A stretch of 64,000 nt of DNA, taken from the NCBI RefSeq assembly GCF_008932245.1, contig NZ_CP034909.1:1798001-1862000 (forward strand), given 5' to 3'. The DNA is from Sinorhizobium alkalisoli (lineage in GTDB: Bacteria > Pseudomonadota > Alphaproteobacteria > Rhizobiales > Rhizobiaceae). A model generated the notes under the pieces. That model did no database searches. It had not been told where the DNA came from and worked only from the letters and a program-made list of their open reading frames with translations. Of the stretch, positions 20,132 through 38,308 are shown one piece after another; the stretch's first letter is position 1, and every line of letters begins with the position of its first letter. The translations under genes were made by a program, and so were the position numbers.

Positions 20132-22410
20132 CGGGCGTCCCCGGCAGGTAGCGGCGTCGCATGGATCAGCGCTCGTCGTTGAGGTTCGCTGAAAAGCCCG
20201 CCTCTCAGCCGCAATGCGTTGGCGACGACGATCACCGAGGAGGTGGACATCGCGATTGCGGCGACGAGCGGCGTCGCATAACCGAGGATCGCGATCGGAA
20301 CCGCAATCAGATTATAGCCGATCGCCAGTGCGAAATTCTGGCGGATCAGCCGGCCGGCCTGGCGCGAGGTCTCGATCGCGAAGGGAACGGCCGTCAGGGC
20401 CTGGTGCATGAAGACGAAGTCGGAGGCCTGGCGGCCGACATCGGCGGCGCTTGCCGGCGCCATCGACACATGGGCGGCGCGCAGCGCCGGCGCGTCGTTG
20501 ATGCCGTCGCCGACCATCAGGACCCGATGTCTGCCCTCGGCCACAACAGCGCAGGCCTCGACCTTGGCGCGCGGCGACAGTTCCGCGATCCAACGCCTGA
20601 TGCCGAGCTTGCGGCCGACCTCGGCGACGACCGGCTCGCGGTCGCCGGAGAGGATGCCGGTTTCCAGCCCGAGCTCGTGGAGCTCCGCAACGCTATCGCC
20701 AGCGCCCGCACGCAATTTGTCCTCGAAGCGGAAAGAGGCGAGCTCCCGGCCATCCACTGAAAGGACCGCTTCCGATTGGCGGCTCGCTTCACCGGCGCCG
20801 CCGCAGGCAAAGGCGCGGCTGCCGAGCCGGTAGACGCCCTCTTTCGTGTCCGCCTCGATGCCCGCGCCGGCAATCTCGCGGATATCCCCCACAAGCGGCA
20901 CCGCCGCACCGGCTGCATCATGCAGCGCCTTCGCGACAGGATGGCGCGAATGCGCCGCGAGTGCCGCGGCAATCGCCATCGCCGCCGGCGCGATCTCGTC
21001 GGCATTCACAAGCCGCGGTTCGCCGATCGTCAGCGTGCCGGTTTTGTCGAAGAGCACCGTATCGATCTCGGCCAGGCGCTCCATGGCCGAGCCGTCCTTG
21101 ACCATGACGCCGCCCTGGAAGAGACGCCCGGCCGCGACCACCTGCACCACCGGCACCGCGAGGCCGAGCGCACAGGGGCAGGTGATGATGAGAACCGCGA
21201 CGGCGACCAGCAGTGCATGGCGCACATCGCCCTCGACGAACATCCAGCCGATGAAGGTGAGGAGCGCCAGGAGATGCACCGCCGGCGAATAGTAGCGAGC
21301 GGCGCGATCGGCGATCCGGCGATAGCGCGCCCTGCCCCCTTCGGCGGCCTCCATCAGCCCCATGATCTCGGCGAGGAAGGAATCGCGGGCTGCCGCCGTC
21401 GCCTCGAGGGTGAGCGGCCCGGTAAGGTTGAGCGTGCCCGCCTGGATCAGGTCGCCGACGCCGACCGCTACCGGCGCGCTCTCGCCATTGACGACGGACC
21501 GGTCGAGGTCGCTGGCGCCGGAGAGCACGCGCCCGTCGACGGGAATGCGCTCGCCCGCCGCAATCATCAGGCGTTCGCCGGGCCGGATTTCCTCGACGGG
21601 CCGGTACTCCCGGCTGCCGTCGGCGTTGACCACCATCGCACCGCGCGGCGACAGGCGCGCCAGCCCGCTGATCGCCGAGCGTGCCCGCCCCCGCATCATG
21701 TGGTCGAGCGTGCGACCGATCAGCAGGAAGAAGAGCAGCGTGACCGAGGCATCGAACCAGGCATGTTCGCCATGGCCGATCGTCTCATGGAGCGACATGC
21801 CATAGGACAGCGTCACCGCAAGCGCGATCGGCACGTCCATGTTGGTGCGGCCATGTCGGAGCGCGTTCCAGGCGGACTGATAGAAGAAGCGTCCGGCGTA
21901 GACGAGCGCCGGCGCCGCGATCATGGCCGAGATCCAGTGGAAGAGATCGCGCGTGGCCGCATCCGCACCCGACCAGACCGAAACCGACAGCAGCATGATG
22001 TTGGTGGCGGCGAAGCCGGCAACGGCGACGGCCCGGATCAGCTGCTTCAGAACGGCGTCGCCCTCCTCCTCACCGACGGCGAAGAGATGCGCCTCGTAGC
22101 CGCGATCACGGATAGCGCGGGCGAGTTCGCGCGGGTCCGTGCGCTTGCCGGCAACCTCCTCCTTCCAGACGATCGAAACGCGCCTCGAGGACAGATTGAC
22201 CCGGGCGCGCTCCACCTCCGGCTTTGTGCGCAGCGCGCCTTCGATCGCGGTGATGCAGGCGCCGCAATGGACACCCGGCACGCTCAGCTCCGTCTGGCGT
22301 AACCCGCCTCCGAGGGACCGGCTCGCAAGCCAGAGCTCCTCGGAGGCGGGCAGCCCCAGCCCCCGCTCGGGTTCCACAACGGTTTCGACACCCGGGGAGC
22401 AGCAACTCAT
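20128..22410 (-). CDS. fixI: copper-transporting P1B ATPase FixI (CcoI)
   Basis: A 760-residue heavy-metal P-type ATPase that supplies copper for cbb3 oxidase assembly. The N-terminal heavy-metal domain has GVHCGACI (Cys49 and Cys52), preceded by a CC pair at residues 3-4. Then come the TM helices, the CPC motif in TCPCALGLAVP near residue 410, the phosphorylation motif DKTGTLT near 456, and GDGINDAPAL in the C-terminal ATP-binding part. The ATG at 22410 (MSCCSPG) has GGGAGACG upstream and overlaps the fixH stop (ATGA); the open frame to 22494 is fixH shadow. The fix gene order G-H-I-S confirms the identity. Confidence 0.96.
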   Translation of the reverse strand: MSCCSPGVETVVEPERGLGLPASEELWLASRSLGGGLRQTELSVPGVHCGACITAIEGALRTKPEVERARVNLSSRRVSIVWKEEVAGKRTDPRELARAIRDRGYEAHLFAVGEEEGDAVLKQLIRAVAVAGFAATNIMLLSVSVWSGADAATRDLFHWISAMIAAPALVYAGRFFYQSAWNALRHGRTNMDVPIALAVTLSYGMSLHETIGHGEHAWFDASVTLLFFLLIGRTLDHMMRGRARSAISGLARLSPRGAMVVNADGSREYRPVEEIRPGERLMIAAGERIPVDGRVLSGASDLDRSVVNGESAPVAVGVGDLIQAGTLNLTGPLTLEATAAARDSFLAEIMGLMEAAEGGRARYRRIADRAARYYSPAVHLLALLTFIGWMFVEGDVRHALLVAVAVLIITCPCALGLAVPVVQVVAAGRLFQGGVMVKDGSAMERLAEIDTVLFDKTGTLTIGEPRLVNADEIAPAAMAIAAALAAHSRHPVAKALHDAAGAAVPLVGDIREIAGAGIEADTKEGVYRLGSRAFACGGAGEASRQSEAVLSVDGRELASFRFEDKLRAGAGDSVAELHELGLETGILSGDREPVVAEVGRKLGIRRWIAELSPRAKVEACAVVAEGRHRVLMVGDGINDAPALRAAHVSMAPASAADVGRQASDFVFMHQALTAVPFAIETSRQAGRLIRQNFALAIGYNLIAVPIAILGYATPLVAAIAMSTSSVIVVANALRLRGGLFSEPQRRALIHATPLPAGDAR

Positions 22411-22904
22411 GGGGCGTCTCCCGGTGCGATGAAGCGAATGGCCTGCCGGTAGACGACCTCTTCTCCGGCCATCGCCGTCAAATCGGCGATCCATTGTCCG
22501 GCCTTGAGAGCGGACGCGGCGACGAACACGCCCTCGCCCGCCCGTTCGAACTCGACGCCAACGTCCTCATGCTCCTCGACCGGACGCTTCAGGATGGCGA
22601 CGACCCTGTCCGCCTTCCGCTCCGGCTCGCCCTTGCGGGTAAGCGTGTAGCGAAGGGAGTCGTTTCCGGGCACCAATTGCCCCTTGATCCCGCTCTCGGC
22701 AAAGGCGCGCGTCTCGGCCACCTTGCCGTTGAACTGCTGGCTGGCAACGTAGGTGTTCTCCACCACCAGACCGCTCCAGCTGCGGCTCGCGTTCCAGGCC
22801 ATCACCAGATTGATCGAAATGATCGTGCCGAAGAACAGGGCCATGAGCGCGAGCATATGCCAGCCGGTGAACACGCGGGGACGGTCGGTGCGTATCTTGC
22901 TCAT
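22407..22904 (-). CDS. fixH: cbb3 oxidase assembly protein FixH (CcoH)
   Basis: A 165-residue membrane protein with one N-terminal helix (FTGWHMLALMALFFGTIISI) and a periplasmic domain, the normal FixH layout. The conserved segment TYVASQQFNGKVAET follows the helix. FixH works with FixG, FixI and FixS in maturing the cbb3 oxidase. Its ATG at 22904 overlaps the fixG stop by four bases and its stop overlaps the fixI start in the same way, so G, H, I and S form one coupled translational unit. Confidence 0.94.
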   Translation of the reverse strand: MSKIRTDRPRVFTGWHMLALMALFFGTIISINLVMAWNASRSWSGLVVENTYVASQQFNGKVAETRAFAESGIKGQLVPGNDSLRYTLTRKGEPERKADRVVAILKRPVEEHEDVGVEFERAGEGVFVAASALKAGQWIADLTAMAGEEVVYRQAIRFIAPGDAP

Positions 22905-24475
22905 CGTTCGGCTCCCGGCTGGTTGAAGTTCGCCTGGTAGATGTCGCGCTCGTGGCTCGAGGGATCCTCGACGACGAGCGAGAAACCGTCCTCCGCCTCG
23001 GCAAGGCTGTCTTTCGGCAGAGTGACGAAAACCTTGAGCGGTGTGACCTTGTCCGGATCGACGGCAATGGTGAAGCTGCGGCCGTCCCCGGTCGCCTGAT
23101 CGGCAATGCGCATGCGCGCCGACGGCATGCCGTCGATCGAAAGCGTGATGTTGCGCTGCTCGGGAATCATGTTGAGTAGCTTGACCATGTAGCCGTTGCG
23201 CACCGAACCGTCGGACTCGACGACGAATTGCGGGTTTCGGTCGTGCAGTACGTTGAGTTCGAGCCGATCGCGCGCCATCAGTGCGTAGAGCATGGCGATG
23301 CCGACCAGGGTCCAGACGCCGAAATAGAGGAGGACGCGGGGTCGGAGGACGATCCGCCAGTTGAAATGCCTGACCTTGTCGGTGAATGCGCCGTTTACGT
23401 TGCGCAGGCGCGTCGGATCGATCGCCGCCCTGCCATTGTCGGTGGCAAGCGCCATATTGGCAGCGTAGTCGCTGAGCGTCGCATAGGAAATCAGCCCCCG
23501 TTCGCGGCCAAGCTTGTCCATGACGCCGTCGCAGGCATCGATGCAGAGCGCGCAGGTAATGCATTCGAGCTGCTGGCCGTCGCGAATGTCGATGCCCATC
23601 GGGCAGACCGCCACGCAGGCATTGCAGTCGACGCAATCGCCGACCACCTCACCGGCCGCCGCCGCCTTCTTTGCATGACGCGAGCGCGGTTCGCCACGCC
23701 AGTCGTTATAGGTGACGACGAGCGAGTTCTCGTCCAGCATCGCCGCCTGTATACGCGGCCAGGGGCACATATAGGTGCAGACCTGCTCGCGCATCATGCC
23801 ACCGAAGACATAGGTGGTGAAGGTCAGGACGCCGACGGTGATATAAGCGACCGGCGGCGCCTCCAGTGCGACGAAGCTCTTGAGCAGCGACGGCGCGTCG
23901 GCGAAATAGAAGATCCATGCGCCGCCGGTCGCAACGCCGATGACCAGCCAGATCGCATGCTTGGCGATGCGCTTGCGGATCTTGTCGAGCGTCCAGGGTC
24001 CGGCATCGAGGCGCATGCGCGCGTTTCGGTCGCCTTCGATGAAGCGCTCGACGACCAGGAACAGATCGACCCAGACGGTCTGCGGACAGGTATAGCCGCA
24101 CCAGGCGCGGCCGACGGCGGAAGTCACGAGGAAGAGGCCGAAGCCGGCCATCACCAGAAGACCGGCGACGAAGAAGAACTCCTGCGGCCAGATTTCGATG
24201 AAGAAGAAATAGAACCGGCGGGAAGCCAGATCGACCAGGACCGCCTGGTCCGGCGCATGCGCGCCCCGGTCCCAGCGGATCCAGGGTGTCAGATAATAGA
24301 TGCCGAGCGTCACCAGCATCACCAGCCACTTGAACCGGCGGAATTGGCCCTCGGCCCGCTTCGGAAAGATCTTGCGGCGTTTTTCGTAAAGCGGCTTGCG
24401 CACGCGCGCCGCATTGACCGGCTCGGCCTCGAAAAGCTCGACGGACTGCGATTGATTGACCGATTGAGGCTGCAT
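22901..24475 (-). CDS. fixG: polyferredoxin-like cbb3 assembly protein FixG (CcoG)
   Basis: A 524-residue membrane protein that is the first gene of fixGHIS. It has five or so hydrophobic helices, the CGYTCPQTVW motif near residue 125, and two 4Fe-4S ferredoxin clusters around residues 275-310 (CVDCNACVAVCPMG and CITCALCIDACD). A C-terminal Ig-like domain follows from about residue 380. FixG is thought to reduce copper for oxidase assembly. The ATG at 24475 is the first start of the frame. An anaerobox TTGATCTGCGTCAA lies 68 nt upstream, so FnrN/FixK-type control is likely. Confidence 0.96.
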   Translation of the reverse strand: MQPQSVNQSQSVELFEAEPVNAARVRKPLYEKRRKIFPKRAEGQFRRFKWLVMLVTLGIYYLTPWIRWDRGAHAPDQAVLVDLASRRFYFFFIEIWPQEFFFVAGLLVMAGFGLFLVTSAVGRAWCGYTCPQTVWVDLFLVVERFIEGDRNARMRLDAGPWTLDKIRKRIAKHAIWLVIGVATGGAWIFYFADAPSLLKSFVALEAPPVAYITVGVLTFTTYVFGGMMREQVCTYMCPWPRIQAAMLDENSLVVTYNDWRGEPRSRHAKKAAAAGEVVGDCVDCNACVAVCPMGIDIRDGQQLECITCALCIDACDGVMDKLGRERGLISYATLSDYAANMALATDNGRAAIDPTRLRNVNGAFTDKVRHFNWRIVLRPRVLLYFGVWTLVGIAMLYALMARDRLELNVLHDRNPQFVVESDGSVRNGYMVKLLNMIPEQRNITLSIDGMPSARMRIADQATGDGRSFTIAVDPDKVTPLKVFVTLPKDSLAEAEDGFSLVVEDPSSHERDIYQANFNQPGAER

Positions 24476-24542
24476 CTGCGGGAATTCCCAAAGTATTCAG
24501 ATCTATCGGTCCGACTTGTGCCCGATCGACCGCCCCCAAGCC

Positions 24543-24556
24543 TTGATCTGCGTCAA
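24543..24556 (-). promoter_or_regulatory. anaerobox (FnrN/FixK site) upstream of fixG
   Basis: TTGAT-CTGC-GTCAA matches the rhizobial anaerobox TTGATN4(A/G)TCAA. It is 68 nt upstream of the fixG start, a suitable position for a class II Crp/Fnr activator with a leader of about 25-30 nt. The rest of the 473-bp gap to the RpiR gene holds two CTCTC/GAGAG inverted repeats and an AT-rich promoter-like stretch near 24863-24900. Confidence 0.85.
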
Positions 24557-24611
24557 GTTTGCGCCCGAATGCCGCAGGGTGCGTCGAAACGCCCTCGTGG
24601 TCCCGCTGGAG

Positions 24612-24757
24612 CCTCTCGGCCTTGAGAGGTCCTAGATGAGCCCTGGCGCGCCTTGTCGAGCAAGCAGCGGCAGCCGAGCCATATTGGGTCTCTTGCCTCC
24701 AGCCCTCCCTCCGGATCTGCCCGAGCCCTGCGACAGGCCCGCCTCTCGACACGAGAG
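24612..24757. promoter_or_regulatory. two related inverted repeats between fixG and the RpiR gene
   Basis: CCTCTC-GGCCTT-GAGAGG (24612-24629) and CTCTCG-ACA-CGAGAG (24743-24757) share the half-site CTCTC/GAGAG with spacers of 6 and 5. They could be operators of the RpiR regulator encoded at 24949. They could also be chance palindromes in GC-rich DNA; nothing else supports them. Confidence 0.3.
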
Positions 24758-24948
24758 TCGCCAGTCATCCGCCTTTCGCCGAATCTTCCCAATGACCGAG
24801 ACCGATTGCTCCGAACGGAGGCGACCTGTACCGCTCTTTGCGCGCTCGAAGCCCCACCCTCTTGCAATTGTAAAAATAATATCGTTATCTGCGGGCGAAT
24901 GAAAATTTTTGGTCATCCACAGCCGACCTTGGAGCCGAAGAGACCTGC

Positions 24949-25899
24949 ATGGCGAAAGTCCCAGACAATCTCTCGGTTGCCCAGCGCATTGCGCGAACCG
25001 CACTGTCGCCGTCGCATCGCCAAATCGCCGACTATGTCCTCGAGCAGCCGCTGAAGGTCGCGGCAATGCCGATCGACGAGTTGGCGGCGAAGGTCGGGGT
25101 ATCGGTGGCGACGGCCAACCGCTTCGCTCGGGCGTTGGGTTTTGAAGGATATGCGCAGTTCCGCGCCGCGCTGGTGCTCGGCTTCGAGTCAGCGCTGGCG
25201 CCGGTGGAAAGGTTGCGAAGCAAGCTGGAGCAATCTGCCGACGCGATGGACGTCGTCGCGGCGACGCTCGCCGAGATGATCCGCAACATCGAAAGGACGC
25301 GCGACGGCCTGGATGCGGCGGAATGCGCGCGTGCCGTCAAGGCCATCCTTGGCGCAAAGCGCGTGTTCATCGTTGGTTTCGGCAGTAGCAGCTGGCTTGG
25401 CGGCCTTCTGGCACGCAATCTCGATCTCTATTGCGAGAATGTGCAACTGCTTGCCAGCATGGAAGGATCTTCCCATGCTGCGAGAGCAATCCACCGGCTG
25501 AGACCCGGCGATCTGGCGATTGCGATCGCCTTTCCGCGCTATCTTTCCGACACGGTTCTGCTGGCGCGCCGCGCACGCGAAGCGGGGGCGGAACTGCTGG
25601 CACTGACCGATGGCGCCAGTTCTCCGCTCGCTGCGCTTGCGGATATCAGGCTCTATGCAAGCACTGACAGCCAATATTATGCCAATTCCGAGGCAAGCGT
25701 TCTGGCGCTGATCGAAGCGTTGAGCAGCGCCGTGGGCCATGCCTCCGAGCATTCGGTGAGGGCCGCTGCGCAGGTCGCCGAAGCCGTGCTGCCGTGGCTG
25801 CATGGGGGCCACTCCGGCCGAGTGCGTCCGGTAGGCGACGGACCGGCCCCAAAGAGGCACGCTCCAGCAGCCTCATCCCCTCAAAAGGAGAAAGAATGA
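24949..25899 (+). CDS. MurR/RpiR-family transcriptional regulator
   Basis: A 316-residue regulator with an N-terminal HTH_6 domain (residues 1-80; ELAAKVGVSVATANRFARAL) and a C-terminal SIS domain (about 120-250; VFIVGFGSSSWLGGLLARN and AIAFPRYLSDTVLLAR). SIS domains bind phosphosugars, and the MurR branch senses MurNAc-6-phosphate. Its stop overlaps the ATG of the isoaspartyl peptidase gene (ATGA), making it the first gene of a large peptide-utilisation operon. Control of that operon is therefore inferred, with a ligand that may be a peptidoglycan-derived compound. The C-terminal 25 residues are disordered. Confidence 0.88.
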   Translation: MAKVPDNLSVAQRIARTALSPSHRQIADYVLEQPLKVAAMPIDELAAKVGVSVATANRFARALGFEGYAQFRAALVLGFESALAPVERLRSKLEQSADAMDVVAATLAEMIRNIERTRDGLDAAECARAVKAILGAKRVFIVGFGSSSWLGGLLARNLDLYCENVQLLASMEGSSHAARAIHRLRPGDLAIAIAFPRYLSDTVLLARRAREAGAELLALTDGASSPLAALADIRLYASTDSQYYANSEASVLALIEALSSAVGHASEHSVRAAAQVAEAVLPWLHGGHSGRVRPVGDGPAPKRHAPAASSPQKEKE

Positions 25900-26867
25900 G
25901 CCCAATCCGACCCGTGGTCGCCATTCATGGCGGCGCCGGCACGCCCAGCCGGGCAGCCATCGATGCTGAGCAAAAGGCCGCCTATCATGCTGCCCTTCGC
26001 GAGATACTTGCCGAGGCACAGGAGACACTTGCCGCTGGTGCCACTGCAGTTGACGCCGTTACCCTCGCCGTGCAGCGGCTGGAGGACAGTCCACTCTTCA
26101 ACGCCGGGTTCGGCTCCGTCTTTACCGCTGCGGTCACCCACGAACTCGACGCTGCGATAATGGATGGTGCAACGTTGCGTGCGGGCGCGGTTGCCGGCGT
26201 CAGCCGCATCCGGAATCCCGCCCTTGCGGCACGTGCGGTGATGGAACAGGGCGAGCATGTGCTGATGGCCGGCGCCGGCGCGGAAAGCTTCGCGCACGAT
26301 TTGGGAATGGAGACAGTTGAGCCGCACTATTTCTCCACGGACTTCCGCCGCAGTCAGCTCCACCGCGCCCAGGGTACGGCAGCGATCATTCTCGACCATG
26401 ATGGCGGCGCGCCGCTCTCCGAGGACAAGAAATTCGGCACGGTCGGCGCGGTCGCACTGGACATGCATGGCAATCTCGCCGCTGCCACGTCCACAGGCGG
26501 CATGACCAACAAGCGGCCGGGCCGCGTCGGCGACACCGCGCTGATCGGCGCGGGGACCTACGCGGACAACCGGACCGCCGCGGTTTCCTGCACGGGAACC
26601 GGCGAAATGTTCATTCGCGCTGCCGCCGCTCACGACCTTTGCGCCCGCATGGCCTATGGCGGCGCCAGGCTGGACGATGCCGCACGGCAGGTGGTGATGG
26701 AAGCGTTGCCGGCCATTGGTGGGCGTGGTGGCCTTATCGCCATCGACGCGAAAGGCAACGTCACGCTGCCCTTCAATACGGAAGGCATGTATCGCGGCTA
26801 CGCCCGTGTCGGCGAGCCGCCCTGCACCGCGATCTTCGAGGATCCATCAGATCCACCCTCCCCGTGA
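25896..26867 (+). CDS. isoaspartyl peptidase / L-asparaginase (IaaA type, Ntn hydrolase)
   Basis: A 323-residue precursor of the plant-type asparaginase family. It should cleave itself before the catalytic Thr182 (motif [11 protein letters not shown]), giving alpha and beta subunits that hydrolyse beta-aspartyl dipeptides and L-asparagine. Supporting motifs are [11 protein letters not shown] at the N-terminus, FNAGFGSVF near residue 68 and [18 protein letters not shown] after the nucleophile. The ATG at 25896 has AAAAGGAGAAAGA upstream and overlaps the regulator stop. It is followed by a peptide ABC transporter, the pattern known from E. coli iaaA-gsiABCD, so uptake and cleavage of isopeptides appear linked. 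Confidence 0.93.
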
Positions 26868-26883
26868 TCAATCGAGTCTGTTC

Positions 26884-28785
<1,902 letters not shown>

Positions 28786-28832
28786 CCAACCCCAGACTTC
28801 CCCGTGCCGTCAACTTAAACTGGAGTCGTCTT

Positions 28833-30395
28833 ATGAGAAATGGCAGTCCTAGCATGCGACATCTGTCTGTCGCCGCCGGCCTCGCGGCCTTGTTCATGAT
28901 GAGCGCCACTGTGCCGGCGTTGGCCGCGAGCAACGTCGTGCTGGCCATCGGTGGCCAGCCTGAGACGCTTGATCCATACAACACCAACACCACGCTCACG
29001 ACGGCGGTCACCAAATCCTTCTATCAAGGCCTCTTCGAGTTCGACAAGGATCTCAAGGTGCGGCCAGTTCTCGCCGAAAGCTATACTGTTTCGGCTGATG
29101 GTCTCGTCTATACGTTCAAGCTGCGCGAGGGCGTCAGGTTTCATGACGGCACCGATTTCAACGCCGAGGCCGTCAAGGTGAATCTGGAACGCGTGCTGAA
29201 CCCTGAGAACAAGCTGGCGCGCTTCAATCAATTCAATCGCATCGACAAGGTTGAAGTCGTCTCGCCCTTCAGCGTACGCGTCACTCTGAAGGAACCTTTC
29301 AGTCCCTTCGTCAACTCACTGGCCCATGCCTCGGCAGCGATCATCTCGCCGGCCGCGCTCGCCAAATACGGCAGCAGGGACATCGCCTTTCATCCGGTTG
29401 GCACTGGCCCCTTCGTGTTCGAGGAATGGCGACAGACCGATTTCGTCAAGGGCAAGAAGTTCGACGGCTATTGGCGCGCAGGCTACCCCAAGGTGGACGG
29501 TATAACCTGGAAGCCCGTGCTGGAGAACAACACGCGTGCGGCCATGCTCCAGACCGGCGAAGCCGATTTCGGCTATCCGCTGCCTTACGAGCAGGCAAGC
29601 TCTCTGGAGGCCAGCGACAAGCTGAACGTGGAAACCGGCCCGTCGATCATCACCCGTTATGTCAGCTTCAACATGCTGCAGAAGCCCTTCGACGATCTCC
29701 GCGTGCGCCAGGCGATTAATTACGCCATAAACAAGGAAGCTCTCGCGAAGGTGGCTTTCGGCGGCTTTGCTGCACCGGCCGAGGGCGTTGTGCCGCAGGG
29801 CGTGCTCTTCGCCCATAAAATGGATCCCTGGCCCTACGACCCGGCGAAGGCCCGTGCACTTCTGACGGAAGCCGGCTATCCGAACGGCTTCGAGTCCGTG
29901 CTCTGGAGCGCCTACACCACGACGACTGCGCAGAAGACGATCCAGTTCCTCCAGCAGCAATTGGCGCAGGTCGGCATCAAGGTCCAGATCCAGGCTCTGG
30001 AACCGGGCCAGCGCACCGAGTGGATCCAGTCCGCCCCGGACCCGAAGACAGCCAAGGTGCGCATGTACTATGCCGGCTGGTCGTCTTCGACCGGCGAGGC
30101 GGACTGGGCGCTGCGGCCGCTGCTGTCCACCGAGGCCTGGCCGCCGAAGCTCAACAACACCGCCTATTATAGCAACGAGGCGGTGGACGGCTTCATCGCG
30201 AGCGCACTGAAGTCGGTCAAGGACGAGGAGAAAGCCGATCTTTACCGGAGGGCCCAGGAGCAGATCATGAAGGATGCTCCCTGGGCGCCGCTGGTGACCG
30301 AGAAGAACCTCTATGCCACCGCTAAGCGCCTCTCCGGAGTCTACGTCATGCCTGACGGCAACATCGATGCCGGAGAGATCGCCGTTTCCGAGTAA
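28833..30395 (+). CDS. peptide ABC transporter periplasmic binding protein (SBP family 5)
   Basis: A 520-residue periplasmic protein with a Sec signal peptide ending in SATVPALAA (cleavage near residue 30). Family-5 features are GGQPETLDPYNTNT at the mature N-terminus, YTFKLREGVRFHDGTDFNA, and VGTGPFVFEEW. It should bind short peptides or peptide-like compounds. The frame runs from inside the upstream gene, and an ATG at 28782 overlaps that stop; the ATG at 28833 is preferred because TGGAG is well placed and the signal peptide begins there. It is followed by 186 nt that contain a RIME-type repeat before the first permease gene. Confidence 0.92.
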   Translation: MRNGSPSMRHLSVAAGLAALFMMSATVPALAASNVVLAIGGQPETLDPYNTNTTLTTAVTKSFYQGLFEFDKDLKVRPVLAESYTVSADGLVYTFKLREGVRFHDGTDFNAEAVKVNLERVLNPENKLARFNQFNRIDKVEVVSPFSVRVTLKEPFSPFVNSLAHASAAIISPAALAKYGSRDIAFHPVGTGPFVFEEWRQTDFVKGKKFDGYWRAGYPKVDGITWKPVLENNTRAAMLQTGEADFGYPLPYEQASSLEASDKLNVETGPSIITRYVSFNMLQKPFDDLRVRQAINYAINKEALAKVAFGGFAAPAEGVVPQGVLFAHKMDPWPYDPAKARALLTEAGYPNGFESVLWSAYTTTTAQKTIQFLQQQLAQVGIKVQIQALEPGQRTEWIQSAPDPKTAKVRMYYAGWSSSTGEADWALRPLLSTEAWPPKLNNTAYYSNEAVDGFIASALKSVKDEEKADLYRRAQEQIMKDAPWAPLVTEKNLYATAKRLSGVYVMPDGNIDAGEIAVSE

Positions 30396-30456
30396 ATGAT
30401 CAGCCGGCGCGCGCCGACAGGATCGACGCGCGCCGGTCCTGATCCGCCTTCGTCCC

Positions 30457-30557
30457 TACAGTGCCGCGTGTCTTATCGGACGCGCAAAGGTCGCTGTAGC
30501 ACTTTGAATTGCTGCATGTCTTTGTCCTTTGATCGAGGTCGATTTAAGGAGACATGC
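30457..30557. repeat. RIME-type mosaic repeat inside the peptide transporter operon
   Basis: This full copy is in reverse orientation to the one at 17400: first TACAGTGCCGCGTGTC...GACGCGCAAAGGTCGCTGTA, then GCATGTCT...AGACATGC-like arms ending at 30557. It lies between the binding-protein stop and the first permease gene of one operon. It produces an open frame continuous with the permease and so a misleading N-terminal extension. Confidence 0.8.
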
Positions 30558-30581
30558 AAGCAGATCGGGGGTATTCGCGAA

Positions 30582-31502
30582 TTGCTGCAGTATTTCCTGA
30601 AACGGCTGATGGGATTGATTCCCACCTTGTTGATCGTCTCGGTGCTGGTGTTCCTCTTCGTACACATGCTGCCCGGCGACCCGGCGCGCCTTGCTGCCGG
30701 ACAGGACGCCGACGAGCAAACCGTGGCGCTGGTGCGTAGCGAACTGGGCCTCGACCGGCCATTGCCGCAGCAGTTCGTCACATTTTTCGGCCACATGCTC
30801 GAGGGCGACTTCGGCACCTCGATACGCACACGCCGTCCCGTGTCCACCGAGATTGCGGAACGGTTCATGCCTACGCTTCTCCTCACCTTGGCCAGCATGG
30901 TCTGGGCGGTCGCTTTCGGAATGGGCATCGGAATCATTTCCGCCGTCTACCGTAACCGCTGGCCGGATCGGCTTGGCATGACGCTCGCCGTGTCGGGCAT
31001 CTCCTTTCCGGCGTTCGCGCTGGGCATGCTTCTGATGCAGATCTTCTCGGTCCAGCTCGGTTGGCTGCCTACCATCGGCGCGGACACCTGGAGACACTAT
31101 GTCCTGCCGTCGCTGACGCTCGGCGCGGCCGTCGCAGCGGTCATGGCCCGCTTCACACGCGCCTCCTTCGTCGAGGTGATCCAGGAGGATTTCGTCCGCA
31201 CCGCCCGGGCAAAAGGACTGAACGAGCGCGTCGTGATCGCCAAGCATTGCCTGCGCAATGCATTGATCCCGGTCGTCACCATGATTGGCCTGCAGTTCGG
31301 GTTCCTGCTCGGCGGCTCGATCGTCGTCGAGGCGGTGTTCAACTGGCCGGGTCTCGGGCGTCTGCTGGTCGATGCCGTCACGCAACGCGACTATCCGGTG
31401 ATCCAGACACTTGTCCTTCTGTTTTCGCTGGAGTTCATCCTGATCAATCTCGTCGTCGACCTGCTCTACGGTTTCATCAATCCAACCATTCGCTACAAGT
31501 GA
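30582..31502 (+). CDS. peptide ABC transporter permease (DppB type)
   Basis: A 306-residue inner-membrane permease with six helices. Family features are the N-terminal helix [20 protein letters not shown] followed by MLPGDPARL, the EAA-like loop [19 protein letters not shown] and the C-terminal [15 protein letters not shown]. The frame is open from 30396, but that extension translates the RIME repeat. The TTG at 30582 (LLQYFLKRL, matching the usual DppB start) has GGGGG about 10 nt upstream and is preferred. It ends 7 nt before the partner permease. Confidence 0.9.
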
Positions 31503-31509
31503 GCCACCA

Positions 31510-32409
31510 ATGACTCAACTCGTTTCGTCCGATTCCGGCGCTGTCGCGGCAGCCGAGGCCGTGCGCACGCCATGGAGCGAATTCTGGCGTAAATTCCGCA
31601 GGCAGCCGGTGGCGCTCGCAGCGCTCGCCTTCGTAGCGCTGCTTGTGCTTCTCGCCCTGCTGGCGCCGGTGATCGCGCCCTACGATGCGGAGAATTATTT
31701 CGATTACGACCAGATCAATGCCGGCCCGTCATGGTCGCACTGGCTCGGGGTCGATCCGCTTGGGCGTGACGTTTTCAGCCGCATTCTTCTCGGTGCGCGT
31801 ATTTCGCTGGCGACCGGGCTGCTGTCGGTGGCACTCGGCGGGTTGATAGGAACGGTGCTGGGATTGCTCGCCGGCTACTACGAAGGATGGTGGGACCGCA
31901 TCGTCATGAGAATTTCCGACGTGCTGTTCGCGTTTCCCGGCATTCTTCTGGCGCTCGGCGTCGTTGCCATCCTCGGCAGTTCCATGGTCAATGTGGTGGT
32001 CGCTGTCTCGGTCTTCTCCGTGCCGGCCTTTGCGCGCCTGGTACGCGGCAATACGCTCGTGCTGAAGCGAATGACCTATATCGAGGCGGTCAAGAGCATC
32101 GGCGCCTCGGATTGGATCATTCTCGCACGCCACATTCTTCCGGGCGCGATTTCGTCCATCGTCGTTTATTTCACGATGCGGCTCGGCACCTCGATCATCA
32201 CCGCCGCCAGTCTGTCATTCCTCGGCATGGGCGCGCAGCCGCCGACACCCGAGTGGGGCGCCATGCTCAATGATGCGCGCGCCGACGTCGTGAATGCTCC
32301 CCATGTGGCGCTGTTCCCGAGCCTTGCCATCTTCCTGACGGTGCTGGCATTCAACCTGCTCGGCGACGGTCTGCGCGATGCGCTCGACCCCAAGATCGAT
32401 CGCCGATGA
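31510..32409 (+). CDS. peptide ABC transporter permease (DppC type)
   Basis: A 299-residue second permease with an N-terminal OppC-N segment ([18 protein letters not shown]), six helices, the family motif [22 protein letters not shown] and the EAA loop ([19 protein letters not shown]). It ends with [15 protein letters not shown], typical of DppC. Start ATG at 31510 is preceded by GTGAGCCACC. The DmpA-family peptidase gene begins 10 nt downstream. Confidence 0.93.
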
Positions 32410-32419
32410 AGGTGCTGCG

Positions 32420-33490
32420 GTGAGTGCTCTCCCCGTTGCGCCACATATCGGAACGCTGGTCGCCGGCCCCCGGAATGCAATCACCGATGTGCCCGGCGTC
32501 ACCGTAGGTCATGCGACCCTTGCTCAGGGTCCGATCCAGACCGGTGTGACCGTCGTGCATCCGCACCAGGGGGATCCCTATCGCGACCGCGTTCCAGCCG
32601 CCAGTGCGGTGCTGAACGGGTTCGGCAAGAGCATCGGCCTCGTGCAGGTGCATGAACTGGGCGTGCTGGAAACACCGATCGCCCTCACCAACACTTTTTC
32701 CGTGGCAACCGTTACGCAGGCGCAGATCCGTCAATGCGTGGCCGCCAATCCGCAATGCGGGCGACGCTTGCCGACGGTCAATCCACTCGTCTTCGAATGC
32801 AATGACGGTTATCTGAACGACATACAGGCAATGGCCGTCATGGAGCAGCACTATCTCGATGCCTGCGCCTCCGCCGGTCCTGCCGTTGCCGAGGGTGCGG
32901 TGGGTGCGGGCCGCGGAATGTCGAGTTTCGGCGTCAAGGGCGGTGTCGGCACGGCGTCTCGTCGCGTGACCGTCGCAAGCGGCGCCGAGTTCACCGTCGG
33001 CGCGCTCGTCGTATCGAACTTCGGTAGGCCGGCGCAGCTTATGCTCGCGGGCCGCGCCATCGGCCAGGAGCTTGCGAAAACGCTCGCTGCCGCCTCCGCC
33101 GGCGAATCGGAGAAAGGCTCCATCATTCTTCTCATCGCGACCGACGCTCCGCTCGACGCACGACAGTTGCGCCGGCTCGCGCTGCGCGCGGGGGCAGGCC
33201 TTGCCCGGACCGGCTCGGTTTTTGGTCACGGCAGCGGCGACATCGCGCTCGCTTTTTCCACGGCCTACACGCTGCCGCAGGATCCTGGCCGTCCCATGCC
33301 GGACGTCGCAATGCTGCATGACGCATGGCTCGATCCCTTGTTCCAGGCCGTCGCCGACAGTGTCGAACAGGCCATCATCCATTCGCTGTTGCGCGCCGAA
33401 ACGGTGATCGGCCGAAATGGTCACCGGCGCGCGAGTCTTCTCGAGCTGATGCCCGGCCTCATCCCCCTGTTTTCAGAGAAATCCTCATGA
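32420..33490 (+). CDS. P1-family (S58) aminopeptidase, DmpA type
   Basis: A 356-residue self-processing hydrolase of the DmpA/BapA family, which removes N-terminal residues, including D-Ala amides or beta-amino acids. Typical motifs are ITDVPGVTVGH near residue 21, GMSSFGVKGGVGTASR near 166 and the autocleavage site KG-SIILLIATDAPL with Gly233/Ser234, followed by LARTGSVFGHGSGDIALAF. The GTG at 32420 lies 10 nt after the permease stop; the open extension has no better start. Its stop overlaps the ATG of the M55 peptidase (ATGA). Position behind a peptide importer suggests intracellular digestion of imported unusual peptides. Confidence 0.9.
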   Translation: MSALPVAPHIGTLVAGPRNAITDVPGVTVGHATLAQGPIQTGVTVVHPHQGDPYRDRVPAASAVLNGFGKSIGLVQVHELGVLETPIALTNTFSVATVTQAQIRQCVAANPQCGRRLPTVNPLVFECNDGYLNDIQAMAVMEQHYLDACASAGPAVAEGAVGAGRGMSSFGVKGGVGTASRRVTVASGAEFTVGALVVSNFGRPAQLMLAGRAIGQELAKTLAAASAGESEKGSIILLIATDAPLDARQLRRLALRAGAGLARTGSVFGHGSGDIALAFSTAYTLPQDPGRPMPDVAMLHDAWLDPLFQAVADSVEQAIIHSLLRAETVIGRNGHRRASLLELMPGLIPLFSEKSS

Positions 33491-34305
33491 AGATTCTCAT
33501 TTCCGTCGACATTGAAGGCGTTGCCGGCGTCTATCATCCCGAGCAGACTCGTCCTGGCCATGCCGAATACGAGCGTGCGCGCCTTCTGATGACGCAGGAG
33601 GCCAATGCCGCCGTGGCCGGCGCTTTCGAGGCAGGCGCGACGGACGTTCTGGTCAATGACTCCCATGCCGGTTTTCGCAACATGCCGGCCGATCACCTCG
33701 ATCCGCGCGCCTCGGTCGTTCAGGGCAAGCCGCGTTATCTGGGCATGATGGCGGGCGTTGAAGACGGGGTGGATGCCGTCTGCCTGATCGGCTACCATTC
33801 GCGCGCCCATGGCCGCGGCATTCTCGCACACACCATCAACAGCTTTGCCTTTGCTCGCATCGAATTCAACGGCATCGAACTCGGAGAGGCCGGCATTTAC
33901 GGAGCGCTCGCCGGCGAATGCGATGTCCCTGTCGTCATGGCGTCCGGTGACAATGTTTTCATCGCCGAAAATCGCGAGCTCTTTCCGCAAGCCGTCTTCG
34001 TGGAAACCAAGCGCGCCAGTGGCTGCAACAGCGGCACAAGCCTTTCTCCCGCGCGTGCGTGCCAAGCAATCGGGGAAGGCGTGGTGCAAGCCCTCCGCCA
34101 CCCGAAGTTGGCGCCGCCGTTCAGGCTTCCCGGTCCCATTGACGCGCGCATCCGTACCCAAACGCCGGCGCTGGCCGATTTGTTTTGCCAGTGGCCCAGT
34201 CTCGACCGGCTTTCCGGCGATGAGGTCGGTTTCACCGCGCCGACGGTGCAGGCGGCCGTGCGCATCGTCAACTGCCTGTCGGCGATGTCGACCATGCTGC
34301 GGTGA
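33487..34305 (+). CDS. M55-family D-aminopeptidase (DppA type)
   Basis: A 272-residue zinc peptidase related to Bacillus DppA, which releases N-terminal D-residues from short peptides such as D-Ala-D-Ala. The metal-binding residues are recognisable: Asp8 and Glu10 in VDIEGVAG, His60 in NDSHAG, His104 in GYHSRA and Glu134 in ELGEAGI. The ATG at 33487 overlaps the DmpA-type gene stop. The remaining C-terminal half ends normally (VGFTAPTVQAAVRIV). Together with the D-amino-acid transaminase downstream it points to breakdown of D-residue peptides. Confidence 0.92.
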   Translation: MKILISVDIEGVAGVYHPEQTRPGHAEYERARLLMTQEANAAVAGAFEAGATDVLVNDSHAGFRNMPADHLDPRASVVQGKPRYLGMMAGVEDGVDAVCLIGYHSRAHGRGILAHTINSFAFARIEFNGIELGEAGIYGALAGECDVPVVMASGDNVFIAENRELFPQAVFVETKRASGCNSGTSLSPARACQAIGEGVVQALRHPKLAPPFRLPGPIDARIRTQTPALADLFCQWPSLDRLSGDEVGFTAPTVQAAVRIVNCLSAMSTMLR

Positions 34306-34410
34306 CGGCGGATGCCGACAATCCCGTGAGCGCCGACAGGAGCCTGCCTGGTCCCGAGGCGTATACTTTTCCAGAATCACCTTTCACCGGCAAAGAAGAA
34401 AGTCTGCCCC

Positions 34411-35271
34411 ATGACAGCTGCATCTGAGACCCGCATGGTTTATGTCAGCGGAGCGTTCCTTCCCATCGAGGAAGCCTCCATTCCCGTTATGGACCGGGGC
34501 TTTCTCTTCGGCGATGGCATCTATGAGGTTACAGCAGTGATCGCGGGTCGCCTCGTCGACAATGAGGCACATCTCCAGCGGCTCGACCGTTCCTTACGCG
34601 AGATCGATATTCCCAATCCACATTCATTGGGGACCTGGACGGCAATCCAGAAGGAGTTGGTTGCGCTGAACGGCCTTACCGAAGGATTGATCTATATTGA
34701 GGTGACGCGTGGTGTCTCCGAGCGCGATTTCCTCAGCCCAGCCGATTTGAAGCCGACCGTGGTCATTTTCACGCAGGCAAAACCGGTACGCACCAACGCC
34801 ACCCTGGCCAAGGGCGCTCAAGTGATCACTTTGCCGGATCTGCGCTGGGCACGGCGGGATATCAAGTCGACTTCACTGCTGGCGCAGGTGCTGGCGAAAC
34901 GCTCCGCCGCTGCCGCGGGCGTCAGTGAGGCGTGGATGGTGGAAGACGGCATGATCACAGAGGGGGCCTCGTCAACCGCCTTCGTCATTACGCCAGCCGG
35001 CGAAATCATCACGCGGCCGCTCTCCCATGCGGTGCTGCCAGGGGTCACCCGTCGCGCGATACTCCGTCTGCTGGAAGAGAGGGAGCTGACATTCGTCGAG
35101 CGGCCCTTCAGCGTGGAAGAAGCGCTGAAGGCGCGCGAGGCGTTCTTCACGAGCGCGTCCACCATCGTCATGCCGGTGGTCACCATTGATGGCCACCCAA
35201 TCGGCGACGGTACCCCCGGGCCCCTGGCTATGCAGTTGCGCGATCTCTATATCGAGGCCGCCCTCGATTAG
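34411..35271 (+). CDS. D-amino-acid transaminase-like class IV aminotransferase
   Basis: A 286-residue PLP enzyme of fold type IV. Motifs include MDRGFLFGDGIYEV near residue 27, the PLP lysine Lys152 in RRDIKSTSLL, Glu of the VEDGMITEGASS segment near 184 and LPGVTRRAILRLL near 210. It probably moves the amino group of D-amino acids to 2-oxoglutarate. The position where D-transaminases often have R-x-H reads RDF (residues 105-107), so substrate preference may differ. The start is 105 nt after the M55 peptidase stop. It is the last gene of the operon, and a large hairpin follows at 35316-35387. Confidence 0.85.
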   Translation: MTAASETRMVYVSGAFLPIEEASIPVMDRGFLFGDGIYEVTAVIAGRLVDNEAHLQRLDRSLREIDIPNPHSLGTWTAIQKELVALNGLTEGLIYIEVTRGVSERDFLSPADLKPTVVIFTQAKPVRTNATLAKGAQVITLPDLRWARRDIKSTSLLAQVLAKRSAAAAGVSEAWMVEDGMITEGASSTAFVITPAGEIITRPLSHAVLPGVTRRAILRLLEERELTFVERPFSVEEALKAREAFFTSASTIVMPVVTIDGHPIGDGTPGPLAMQLRDLYIEAALD

Positions 35272-35315
35272 AGCCTTTCCGGGCTAAATGGAAACATTCT
35301 GCCGGAGCAGGTTTT

Positions 35316-35387
35316 CGTCAGGGCAGAGGCGATCGCCGCAGGTCGTACCCGGAGGTACGGCCGAGGCGATCGCCTCCGATCCTGACG
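35316..35387. repeat. long imperfect palindrome after the peptide operon
   Basis: CGTCAGG (35316-35322) pairs with CCTGACG (35381-35387), AGGCGATCG pairs with CGATCGCCT, and CGTACC pairs with GGTACG at the tip. The result is a 72-nt hairpin, longer than usual intrinsic terminators and not followed by a T-run. It is probably a palindromic repeat of the rhizobial intergenic type that ends the operon or protects its mRNA. Confidence 0.6.
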
Positions 35388-35490
35388 GAAGCTGGGCATG
35401 ATGATCCCGCCGGAGAGGCTCGAGGCTCTCAAGCCAGCGGGCTGCTGCTGGAGGCCACACGAGACAAGCTGCTTGCGTTGCTCCGTAATG

Positions 35491-36018
35491 TTACATGAGC
35501 CGCTTGGTCATCCGCAGGAGAGGCACAGTCACGCCGCCCCGACCATCGACTAATCGCTCGACGGGAATGTAGCCGCAAGCCCGATATAGCGGTTCGCCGG
35601 CCATCGTGCCCATCAGCTCGGCTCGTTTGAAGCCCTCATTGCGCGCGGCCTGCTCGCAAAGCGCAAGGATTATCCTCCCCACACCGCGGCGGGCATAGGC
35701 CGGATGCGTATACATGGCACGCACCCGCGCCGGATCATACACGGGATCGAGCAATGCGGCGTCACGTCCGGTAGTTGCGTCGCTGCCGTACAGCGTTGCT
35801 CTGCGGCTCCAGCCGCCGCACCCTGCGATCGTACTATCCAGCAGGATCACGAAGTAAGTCCCATCATCTATCAGTTGTGTGTCGAGCCCCATGATTTGGC
35901 GGCTCGACTCGATCTGCGCTTCGGTGAGAAAGGGTCTCTGGAGTTCCGATATTGCCGCGTCGATCAGCGCTGCAAGGATCCCCAGGTCAGCGCGGGTCGC
36001 GTTTCTGTGCTCCAACAT
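35491..36018 (-). CDS. GNAT-family N-acetyltransferase
   Basis: A protein of 175 residues (179 if it starts at the ATG at 36030) with one acetyltransferase domain. The acetyl-CoA pocket is formed by PAYARRGVGRIILALCEQAA near residues 110-130, and the C-terminal ELMGTMAGEPLYRACGY completes the fold. The internal ATG at 36018 is preferred because GGAG stands 7 nt upstream. The acceptor is unknown; many such enzymes acetylate amines or small antibiotics. It is convergent with the peptide operon and stands next to an AOC-barrel-like gene on the same strand. Confidence 0.82.
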   Translation of the reverse strand: MLEHRNATRADLGILAALIDAAISELQRPFLTEAQIESSRQIMGLDTQLIDDGTYFVILLDSTIAGCGGWSRRATLYGSDATTGRDAALLDPVYDPARVRAMYTHPAYARRGVGRIILALCEQAARNEGFKRAELMGTMAGEPLYRACGYIPVERLVDGRGGVTVPLLRMTKRLM

Positions 36019-36048
36019 AATCGTCTCCATGAACCTTCGTGCATCATA

Positions 36049-36663
36049 CTAGCGATAGTCGCTACGCGACGGTTCTGCATCGGCGCCGGCGAGGGTAGGC
36101 GCAGCGACGTCCCCCGCACTCTGCGCGGCCTGCCCGGCAAACCGCATCTGCAACCGCACGCCGTAGCCGTCGCTCATGCCGAGCAGTGTTTGGCTGATCT
36201 CGACCGGGGCTCGGGCGTAATCGCCGGTACCGCCTGTCACGGCGCGGACGACCTCAACACCCGTTTCCGCCAGTTCGGGGCCTTGGGTGATGAGAATATC
36301 GCCGTCCTTGAAGACAATGACCTGGCGCGTGATGACGACGGTTCCGGTCTCGGTGCGGAAGCCGTTGCCTACGTAGTAGCCGTCGCAGGTCCAGGTTCCG
36401 ATCACCTTGTCCGGAAAGGCTGGGCTGCCGTCCTTGAGCGTACCCTCGATCCCGCCGTCGAGGGTACCGGTGGGATAGACGTAACCCTGGGTGACGAAGG
36501 CGTTGCCGTAGGCGGGCATCCCGTCCTCGAATACGGGGGCCTCGTCATAAACGAAGCGGCTGAGATCCTCAGCCACGTCGAAGGCCGGGAGCGCGCCGTC
36601 CGCCATTGCGACCATCGGGATCACCGCGGCGAAAGCAGCGAGTACAAAACGAGTCGATTTCAC
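36049..36663 (-). CDS. secreted protein with allene-oxide-cyclase/dirigent-like barrel
   Basis: A protein of 204 residues beginning at the GTG at 36663 (VKSTRFVLAAFAAVIPMVAMADG), which gives a normal signal peptide; the open extension to 36840 has no convincing start. The mature part is rich in beta strands and has RAVTGGTGDYARAPVEI near residue 148, a motif typical of AOC-barrel and dirigent-like proteins. A function is not known for most bacterial members. It is likely periplasmic or secreted. The TTC38-like TPR gene ends upstream of it on the same strand. The identification is by motif and predicted fold only. Confidence 0.6.
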   Translation of the reverse strand: MKSTRFVLAAFAAVIPMVAMADGALPAFDVAEDLSRFVYDEAPVFEDGMPAYGNAFVTQGYVYPTGTLDGGIEGTLKDGSPAFPDKVIGTWTCDGYYVGNGFRTETGTVVITRQVIVFKDGDILITQGPELAETGVEVVRAVTGGTGDYARAPVEISQTLLGMSDGYGVRLQMRFAGQAAQSAGDVAAPTLAGADAEPSRSDYR

Positions 36664-36861
36664 GGGTATGTCCTTGCTGTTTGCATGGTGGTGAGGATGC
36701 GTACCAGGCGCGTCTTCCGAAAGGCACGCCTCGGTCCGGCTCGCGGCAGCGGCGGGCCGTATGCTTGGGTTGAACGGCGCGGCAACCGCCGCGCAGAAGT
36801 CTTGGCAGTGATCCGCGTTGTCCACGTGGATCGCCTGCATTTGATGATCATTTCGGTCGAC

Positions 36862-38199
36862 CTAGGCGGCATTCCTGCCCGGTGATGCATTCGCGCCGGC
36901 CCTTGACAGGAAGCTCTTGTTGACCGGGCTGTGCGGCTTCAGCGCCAATCGCTCGTTGCCAATGGCCTCGGCCATCGCCGTCAGGTCACCACGAACGGAA
37001 GCCTCGGCCAGCGTCCAGTCGATGATATCGCGCTGGGCGTGGCTGCCGCCGAAGGAATTGGCGATGAAGCGCGCGCCGTGGAGGAGGTTCGCTGCATTTT
37101 CGTAGTCACCACGCCAGAATGCAGCGAACCCTTCGACCAGCGGCAGAGCGGTGCGGTTGCCCCATCCACCTGCCTCGGATACGTGGGCGCCATTCCGGTA
37201 GGCGTTAGCGATGCGGTCTACCTTGGCAGTACGGCCGGCGCCGAGATAGGCCATCACCGCATGCCAGTCGTTGAATGGATAGGTGCAGCCGTCCACATGA
37301 CTGTCCCAGGCCGTCGCCAGTTCCTGCCAGCGGTGGCCGACATCATGGCCGGAGAGATGAAGTCGCCAGAGAAGTGCGGAGGCATCGACCATGTCGAGCG
37401 CGACCATGCTGCGATCTTGCCGGATCGGCCCATCATAGAGGGCGAGTACCTCGTCGGCCTGGCCGAGGTCGAGATGGCACAGCGAACGGTGCCACCAGTT
37501 GTGGACCTTGAAGAAATTGTCGTCGCCTGACCAATGCGGCTCGCGCGCGATCATCCAGCCAATGCCATCCTCGGCGCGACCCTGCATTTCCATGACATGG
37601 GCGACGGCATGGTGCGCCCAGCAATCGAGCGGCTGAACGTCGACAGCGCGGCGGCCCGCCTCCTCGGCCCGGCCATAGTCGCCGGTTTCCTCAAGACCGA
37701 AGGCATGCATGCCGAGCAGAATCGAGTAGCCAGGTATGTTCGCGGACCATTTTGGCAGCACGCGCGCGATGCGGTCGCGCAGGCTCCGCGCGCTGGCGCG
37801 GTAGAAATCCATCAGATGACCCGACTGGAGAGCGACGATATCGTGGGGGTAGTCCGCGTTGTGGCGATCGAGCACCGTCGCCGCGGCGGTCCACTCCCCC
37901 TCGACCAGCAGGTCGAGGGCAACAACATGCGAGGCCTCGCGCTCGGAGAGCCGCAGCGACTTCACCGTGCCGATGATCGCCTTCGCTTCCTTGGTCGCCT
38001 CCGGCTCGGTCGCGAGGCCGAGTAGATGTGCCTTGAAGATGTGCGCCATGGCAAAGGCGGGCGCTGCCTCGATCGCGCGGTCGAGCAATCCGACGGGATC
38101 ACCGCGATAGATGTTGAAAGCGTCGACGGCCTGGTCGAACAGGCCAGAGACTTCGGATGTCGCTCCGGTCAACACATTGCCTTGCGCATCGGTTATCAT
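36862..38199 (-). CDS. TTC38-like tetratricopeptide repeat protein
   Basis: A 445-residue, mostly alpha-helical protein with helical repeats of TPR type (for example FDQAVDAFNIYRGDPVGLLDRAIE near residue 20, and RAEEAGRRAVDVQPLDCWAHHAVAHVMEMQGRAEDG near 185). Length and motifs such as FFKVHNWWHRSLCHLDLG fit the TTC38 family, whose biochemical role is not known. The ATG at 38199 has AAGGAAAG upstream; the larger frame to 38523 is antisense to the AraC gene start. It is divergent from the AraC-type regulator, so the two are probably a regulator-target pair. Confidence 0.75.
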   Translation of the reverse strand: MITDAQGNVLTGATSEVSGLFDQAVDAFNIYRGDPVGLLDRAIEAAPAFAMAHIFKAHLLGLATEPEATKEAKAIIGTVKSLRLSEREASHVVALDLLVEGEWTAAATVLDRHNADYPHDIVALQSGHLMDFYRASARSLRDRIARVLPKWSANIPGYSILLGMHAFGLEETGDYGRAEEAGRRAVDVQPLDCWAHHAVAHVMEMQGRAEDGIGWMIAREPHWSGDDNFFKVHNWWHRSLCHLDLGQADEVLALYDGPIRQDRSMVALDMVDASALLWRLHLSGHDVGHRWQELATAWDSHVDGCTYPFNDWHAVMAYLGAGRTAKVDRIANAYRNGAHVSEAGGWGNRTALPLVEGFAAFWRGDYENAANLLHGARFIANSFGGSHAQRDIIDWTLAEASVRGDLTAMAEAIGNERLALKPHSPVNKSFLSRAGANASPGRNAA

Positions 38200-38308
38200 G
38201 ATCGATCTTTCCTTTCTCGAGGTGTATACAGTAATCGCGCCTGTCGCCCATCGCAGCAATGCTGTGGCTGTTGGGGCGATCTCGACACCTAAGTAAACCG
38301 TCGCCGTG

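Follow-up and report, generated by a model that had tools for sequence, protein, structure and literature searches.

What is the nine-gene cluster at positions 24949 to 35271 of this stretch of the Sinorhizobium alkalisoli genome for, and how did it come to be there? The stretch, called the window below, comprises 64,000 nucleotides of contig NZ_CP034909.1, and the cluster encodes a regulator, a peptide importer, three peptidases and a transaminase. Isopeptides and peptides with D-amino acids, released from cell walls and from ageing protein, are believed to make up a sizeable reservoir of organic nitrogen that turns over slowly, and to our knowledge their uptake by Proteobacteria is poorly defined. 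The cluster is probably a horizontally transferred operon that imports and hydrolyses peptides with D-residues or iso-linkages and salvages the D-amino acids released, as suggested by the gene families present and by their recurrence in other genomes. A conserved operon that joins an importer to three unusual peptidases and a salvage enzyme, under a regulator of its own, would offer a concrete answer as to how such peptides are taken up.

The nine genes and their conservation

All nine genes are open frames on the + strand, at the positions given in an earlier note on this DNA, and each encoded protein scores well above the cut-off of its main Pfam family. They are as follows.

24949..25899, + strand: rpiR, regulator with HTH_6 and SIS domains (Pfam)
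25896..26867, + strand: iaaA, Asparaginase_2 family, isoaspartyl peptidase (Pfam; alignment to E. coli 2zak)
26884..28785, + strand: gsiA, fused double ATPase of a peptide ATP-binding cassette importer (Pfam, NCBIfam)
about 28854..30395, + strand: gsiB, family 5 solute-binding protein (NCBIfam NF011942; start placed from the family alignment)
about 30582..31502, + strand: gsiC, permease (NCBIfam NF011661; TTG start placed from the family alignment)
31510..32409, + strand: gsiD, permease (NCBIfam NF011662)
32378..33490, alternative start 32420, + strand: S58 (P1 family) N-terminal nucleophile (Ntn) peptidase (Pfam PF03576)
33487..34305, + strand: M55 D-aminopeptidase, DppA-like (Pfam PF04951)
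34411..35271, + strand: class IV aminotransferase, D-amino-acid transaminase (DAAT) subfamily (NCBIfam PRK06680)

The nine genes likely form a single transcript. The ATGA overlaps reported earlier are present at two junctions, rpiR/iaaA (25896) and S58/M55 (33487), and iaaA-gsiA and gsiC-gsiD are separated by 16 and 7 nucleotides (nt), with wider gaps of 186 nt between gsiB and gsiC and 105 nt between the M55 gene and the transaminase gene. A terminator scan gave 16 sites, with 7.9 expected by chance, one of them directly after the transaminase gene, whilst a promoter scan gave a single site, on the opposite strand (2.2 expected), and Rfam returned nothing at gathering scores in 24400-36000.

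Scanning named genomes with the M55 protein yielded 341 relatives. The 80 best were retained, a choice that favours close kin; judged by title, most of these loci are from Burkholderiales and the others from Rhizobiales. Upstream sequence is shorter than 8.5 kb in nine of them, leaving 71 testable for the core, and in 57 of these rpiR-iaaA-gsiABCD-S58-M55 is complete, in that order (gaps were not part of the count) and on one strand. The other 14 are without iaaA (two), iaaA and S58 (six), rpiR (four), rpiR and iaaA (one) or S58 (one). The eight-gene core is a conserved operon, with related forms across a range of Proteobacteria, and the idea that these functions are rarely seen together is rejected on this count. 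The literature searches made turned up no description of the operon. The transaminase gene is far less constant, occurring in 8 of the 75 loci with room for it (8 of all 80), all eight from Rhizobiales by title. Downstream genes common to 26 loci, which by eye concern sulfur assimilation, were also considered as linked and rejected, as the loci shown are of the Variovorax type and the pattern looks like local synteny.

Gene neighbourhoods drawn more widely agree, the operon genes recurring together in other genomes, the first check that the earlier note had proposed. Out of 397 genomes drawn evenly across the phylum, 25 had an M55 match, two of them weak. The contexts examined numbered 24 (22 from this screen and two from another search), and in the 17 outside the S. 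alkalisoli genome with M55 identity of at least 41%, gsiABCD was present in 17 (one on the other strand), S58 in 16, iaaA in 14 and rpiR in 10. Seven loci of lower identity sit in other settings, among them L142, which has an S58 gene by its second M55 gene. In plasmids, 127 of 72,556 records carried an M55 match, seven of these at 60-80% identity. A short metagenome contig (L045) has an M55 gene at 72% with no gsi or S58 match, together with a DgcN-like gene at 43%.

These nine kinds of gene are found in three orders, that of the window and two others. Plasmids of Azospirillum and Skermanella carry RpiR-DAAT-Gsi-S58-M55-IaaA, and Paracoccus seriniphilus has DAAT-S58-RpiR-Gsi-M55-IaaA, an order shared by P. 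yeei without a transaminase match. A downstream iaaA is found in Chelatococcus (on the other strand) and in the Agrobacterium vitis type, and these copies fall in a different branch of the IaaA tree (34 chosen sequences, midpoint root, deep fork supported at 91/95); those of L133 and L137 form a further branch, so that relocated IaaA copies come largely from other branches of the tree. The L133 transaminase is very remote from that of the window, and the L095 and L142 transaminases pair together. The genus also holds a second, unlike D-peptide cluster, in G151 (L095:7624-19369), consisting of DAAT-S58-M55 with a LysR gene, an amidohydrolase, a different peptide importer and a Peptidase_C26 protein that falls under the NCBIfam cut-off for gamma-glutamyl-GABA hydrolase.

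These rearrangements bear on one alternative, an operon for peptide nutrients in general that is not directed at any D- or iso-substrate. Members of the S58 family are known to accept L-peptides, but M55 and IaaA, with a transaminase or dgcN/dgcA, recur with the importer in several orders, and this alternative seems very improbable.

Importer, enzymes and D-glutamate genes

Automatic annotation would make the importer one for glutathione. GsiB, GsiC and GsiD exceed the cut-offs of the NCBIfam glutathione-importer models (735 bits against 594 for NF011942, 604 against 463 for NF011661 and 568 against 484 for NF011662), GsiA falls slightly under its own (1024 against 1077), and the closest solved structure to GsiB is 1uqw. 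Scoring up to four candidates per genome, the GsiB model was passed in 19 of 299 genomes, 10 of them in family f93, which looks enterobacterial from its flanking genes, judged by eye. In the f93 copies (n=10) iaaA precedes gsi in seven, as in E. coli, and three have no iaaA there, two of which (G346, G436) carry it in a separate M55 operon. Outside f93, all nine sampled GsiB equivalogs (S. alkalisoli and eight others) have an M55 gene in the same operon, in one case (L130) without S58, and the label of glutathione importer on these genes therefore appears doubtful. In L130 a pyroglutamyl peptidase and a pyrroline-2-carboxylate reductase gene (L130:10696-12302) lie just downstream of the operon on the other strand.

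Uptake of glutathione or other gamma-glutamyl peptides, with the peptidases as loosely linked neighbours, would explain the model scores, the iaaA-gsiABCD order of E. coli and possibly the Peptidase_C26 gene of L095, despite its sub-threshold score. Set against it are the adjoining M55 genes, the recurrence of D-specific genes and the fact that an E. coli Ggt query found relatives in none of 31 loci, and it seems distinctly improbable. The automatic label on such Gsi genes is called into question.

The enzymes retain the residues expected of their families, without always reaching the more exact models. IaaA scores 427 bits against the NCBIfam equivalog PRK10226, below the cut-off of 567, whilst its Thr182 (the Ntn nucleophile) and its Arg210 and Asp213, which bind substrate in that family, align with E. 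coli 2zak, and position 182 is Thr in 67 of 68 aligned copies. The S58 protein exceeds the PF03576 cut-off and has the Gly247-Ser248 autocleavage pair in 67/67 aligned copies, with no match to any NCBIfam family; its nearest solved structure is archaeal 2drh (307 bits), ahead of 1b65 (DmpA, 185) and 3n2w (BapA, 179), and the description "DmpA-type" is thus too loose to serve as a guide to specificity. A search with the S58 protein returned 7,990 relatives, without context, and was not used further. For M55, the metal ligands named earlier (D8, E10, H60, H104 and E134, the last as E133/134) are confirmed by alignment with 1hi9, their roles being those known for DppA, and together with H115 they are invariant in 81/81 aligned copies (numbered one higher in that alignment); the score against the DppA equivalog is 158 bits, below the cut-off of 430. 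The class IV transaminase passes PRK06680 (370 bits, cut-off 320), in agreement with its original assignment to the D-amino-acid subfamily, falls below TIGR01121 (222 bits, cut-off 277) and has RRDIKSTSL as its pyridoxal phosphate lysine segment.

Taken in order, GsiABCD would import short iso-linked or D-residue peptides, IaaA would open beta-aspartyl bonds, as its family and residues suggest, the S58 aminopeptidase of the Ntn class, together with the D-aminopeptidase of family M55, would trim N-terminal residues, D-residues included, and the transaminase may turn freed D-amino acids (D-Ala, D-Glu, D-Asp) into 2-oxo acids.

The reading is strengthened by D-glutamate genes, and by the relocated transaminases, in related operons. 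In five family f93 loci a dgcA-type gene precedes gsiA in all five and dgcN is present in three; the two without DgcN have iaaA, which was not seen in any of the three operons of the phylum screen that carry dgcN. The NCBIfam scan covered two of the five: in L134 both DgcN and DgcA exceed their cut-offs, and in L138 the DgcA-type gene passes the L-Ala-D/L-Glu epimerase model and narrowly misses that of DgcA. Klebsiella plasmid pKPN_CZ and E. coli AH04 have the order dgcN-dgcA-gsiABCD-S58-M55-LysR, and five similar E. coli records among 5,426 genomes have a match spanning S58 and M55. The five f93 loci, the Klebsiella plasmid and the E. coli strain have, in place of the transaminase gene, D-glutamate genes of the dgcA type, in some cases together with dgcN. 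According to one report, DgcN and DgcA turn D-Glu into L-Glu (PMC10845958). The pKPN_CZ copy (L212, NC_019390.1 42435-53078) is on a conjugative plasmid, with insertion sequences downstream of the cluster.

A general association with DgcN operons was considered and rejected. DgcN exceeds its cut-off in 76 of the 397 genomes; 20 contexts were picked for family spread, those already known being left out, and none of them includes S58 or M55. A transaminase 48-50% identical to that of the window follows dgcA in four of the 20.

Several observations weigh against reading the cluster as an operon for D-residue and iso-linked peptides. Neither S58 nor M55 was found in any of the 20 picked DgcN contexts and the S. 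alkalisoli genome has no DgcN match, and the link to D-Glu is therefore limited to loci of the f93 type. Only 8 of 80 loci carry the transaminase gene, and those 80 were picked by M55 similarity, with its bias to close kin. The window-clade transaminase has RDF in place of the classical RxH motif of D-amino-acid transaminases, and a further class IV copy, 41% identical to it, is present in the genome. The nearest relative of the S58 protein is an archaeal "hypothetical D-aminopeptidase", and its Asn142 (66/67 copies, one gap) stands where DmpA has Tyr146. The gsiB-gsiC gap has a terminator-like match at 30495, and the M55-transaminase gap has one at 34345. Finally, no gamma-D-glutamyl endopeptidase or LD-carboxypeptidase family, of the kind that murein-peptide breakdown should need, was matched in Pfam by any of the nine, in a survey of these genes and not of the flanks. 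Uptake and breakdown of D- and iso-linked peptides, as the earlier note proposed, is still the best reading. The unit itself is confirmed, and its genes are found together elsewhere; the rarity and the MurR-like sensing that were attached to it have fallen away.

The regulator, the upstream site and the probable arrival of the unit

The regulator had been assigned to the MurR/RpiR type, which could imply sensing of a phosphosugar, and such sensing is rejected on sequence grounds. The phosphosugar motif of SIS domains is SxSGxT, and in its place, aligned to SSSGS of the solved regulator 4ivn, the window protein has AFPRY, of which PRY is invariant in 76/76 sequences; the protein also scores below the cut-offs of the NCBIfam RpiR models. 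As the phosphosugar motif is lost, the ligand would more plausibly be a peptide or amino acid than a sugar phosphate, and RpiR may control the operon from a conserved site upstream of its own gene:

24871..24916, + strand: operator-like conserved site, two blocks about 10 nt apart, upstream of rpiR (conservation)

When the window was compared with eight alphaproteobacterial loci (L004-L011, giving nine sequences), the best 10-nt bins of this site were 82-88% identical pairwise, and bins further upstream 24-34%. The S. alkalisoli genome has one match to the site at up to three mismatches, and a reversed control had none. A similar site is seen at a similar distance in Burkholderiales by fuzzy matching without a control; that search, allowing up to six substitutions, matched 62 of the 68 upstream regions, some plainly elsewhere. 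The case for a clear palindrome is weakened. Inverted symmetry in the window site is not significant (10/16 matches, with 43 of 60 shuffles equally good), whereas eight of 28 chosen upstream regions have an inverted repeat matched by at most three of 60 shuffles, one of them (L004) at a different place, and that of L038 reaches 15/16 matches with 0/60 shuffles. Because symmetry is clear in some relatives and not in the window, the case for an operator rests on conservation. The site provides a DNA handle on the inducer of the operon.

Two further features concern how the unit came to be where it is.

24626..35392, no strand: segment not in the nearest sampled sister genome, gained or lost (flank alignment to L090)
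30455..30557, no strand: two-hairpin interspersed repeat of about 105 bp in the gsiB-gsiC gap (own-genome matches, folding)

The nearest sampled genome by CcoG (98%) is G164, and its locus L090 aligns to the flanks of the unit, 18000-24625 and 35393-40117, at 92% and 96%, the two being joined there by 1.7 kb of different sequence. Since this sister has the flanks without the unit, gain of 24626-35392 in S. alkalisoli seems likelier than loss in G164. Six further genomes of the genus have no operon beside ccoG, and a close M55 gene is present in none of the 23 other sampled genomes of the genus, one of which has a 39% copy. Much of window 35393-41284 aligns to G164 and not to the ccoG region of the six others, and this site may therefore have taken up DNA more than once. 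In G164 the site of the operon is occupied by a protein-L-isoaspartate methyltransferase gene (L090:8566-9264); the best match to it in the S. alkalisoli genome is 43%, and 20 of the 23 other sampled genus genomes have one of at least 78%. The swap is a single event and perhaps a coincidence.

The repeat, presumably similar to rhizobial RIME elements, gives 51 match rows in its own genome, itself included, and a folding z of -4.93. As it is genome-wide and was not matched by blastn at 1e-4 in any of the 80 related loci, it probably entered the gsiB-gsiC gap after the unit had arrived, and it may lower expression downstream of gsiB.

Peptide source and comparison with known systems

Among the sources named in the earlier note, the presence of D-glutamate enzymes in related operons speaks for peptides of murein type or others with D-Glu. 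Because of these enzymes, murein-type peptides with D-Glu and D-Ala are put forward as the likeliest natural source, at a confidence held somewhat below even because no gene for a gamma-D-glutamyl bond was recognised among the nine.

Scavenging of aged protein, that is of L-isoaspartyl, D-aspartyl and D-isoaspartyl peptides from deamidation with D-Glu peptides secondary, is a possible source that seems rather unlikely. It would account for iaaA in 14 of the 17 phylum-screen operons, for relocated copies drawn largely from other branches and for iaaA in the M55 operons of G346 and G436, and not by their E. coli-type gsiABCD; isoaspartyl links are also chemically beta-amino-acid links, which fits S58 from what is known of the family, and an isoaspartyl methyltransferase stands at the operon's site in the sister genome, with no close orthologue in S. 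alkalisoli. That swap is one event only, however, the accessory genes of f93-type operons are D-glutamate enzymes, and no iaaA was found where dgcN is present in the phylum screen. A role in detoxifying or using non-ribosomal peptides, whether linear or cyclic, that contain D-, beta- and iso-linked residues would suit the enzyme set, and a non-ribosomal peptide synthetase gene lies about 8 kb from the Allorhizobium S4 copy; such a neighbour was seen at one locus only, among neighbours that were clustered without a systematic export or resistance scan, and there seems little chance that this is the function.

Returning to uptake of D- and iso-linked peptides as the preferred reading, there may be close to an even chance that GsiABCD outside enterobacteria forms the entrance to a mobile, modular system for such peptides, with a fixed core of importer, S58 and M55, interchangeable modules for isopeptides (IaaA, possibly a C26 hydrolase) and for D-amino-acid salvage (a transaminase or DgcN-DgcA), and a family of SIS regulators that no longer answers to sugar phosphates but to a peptide or amino acid of acidic nature.

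The closest known parallel is iaaA-gsiABCD of E. coli, in which the five shared genes have the same order and the proteins are 57-75% identical; the K-12 locus differs in having no rpiR, S58, M55 or transaminase gene and in being flanked by moeA and pdeI. The dppABCDE-ykfABCD genes of Bacillus subtilis combine the M55 protein DppA with a peptide importer, as here, and with a Glu-dipeptide epimerase, as in the f93 form. They also include a gamma-D-glutamyl endopeptidase and an LD-carboxypeptidase, and we know of no IaaA, S58, transaminase or RpiR gene among them; the window M55 protein is distantly related to DppA (130 bits). DmpA and BapA (1b65, 3n2w) share the S58 family and the Gly-Ser autocleavage site with the window protein, which is nearer to 2drh and has Asn for Tyr146 of DmpA. 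Lastly, the DgcN-DgcA pathway joins D-Glu salvage to the same importer and peptidases in f93, pKPN_CZ and E. coli AH04, whereas the window operon has neither gene and carries the transaminase in that place.

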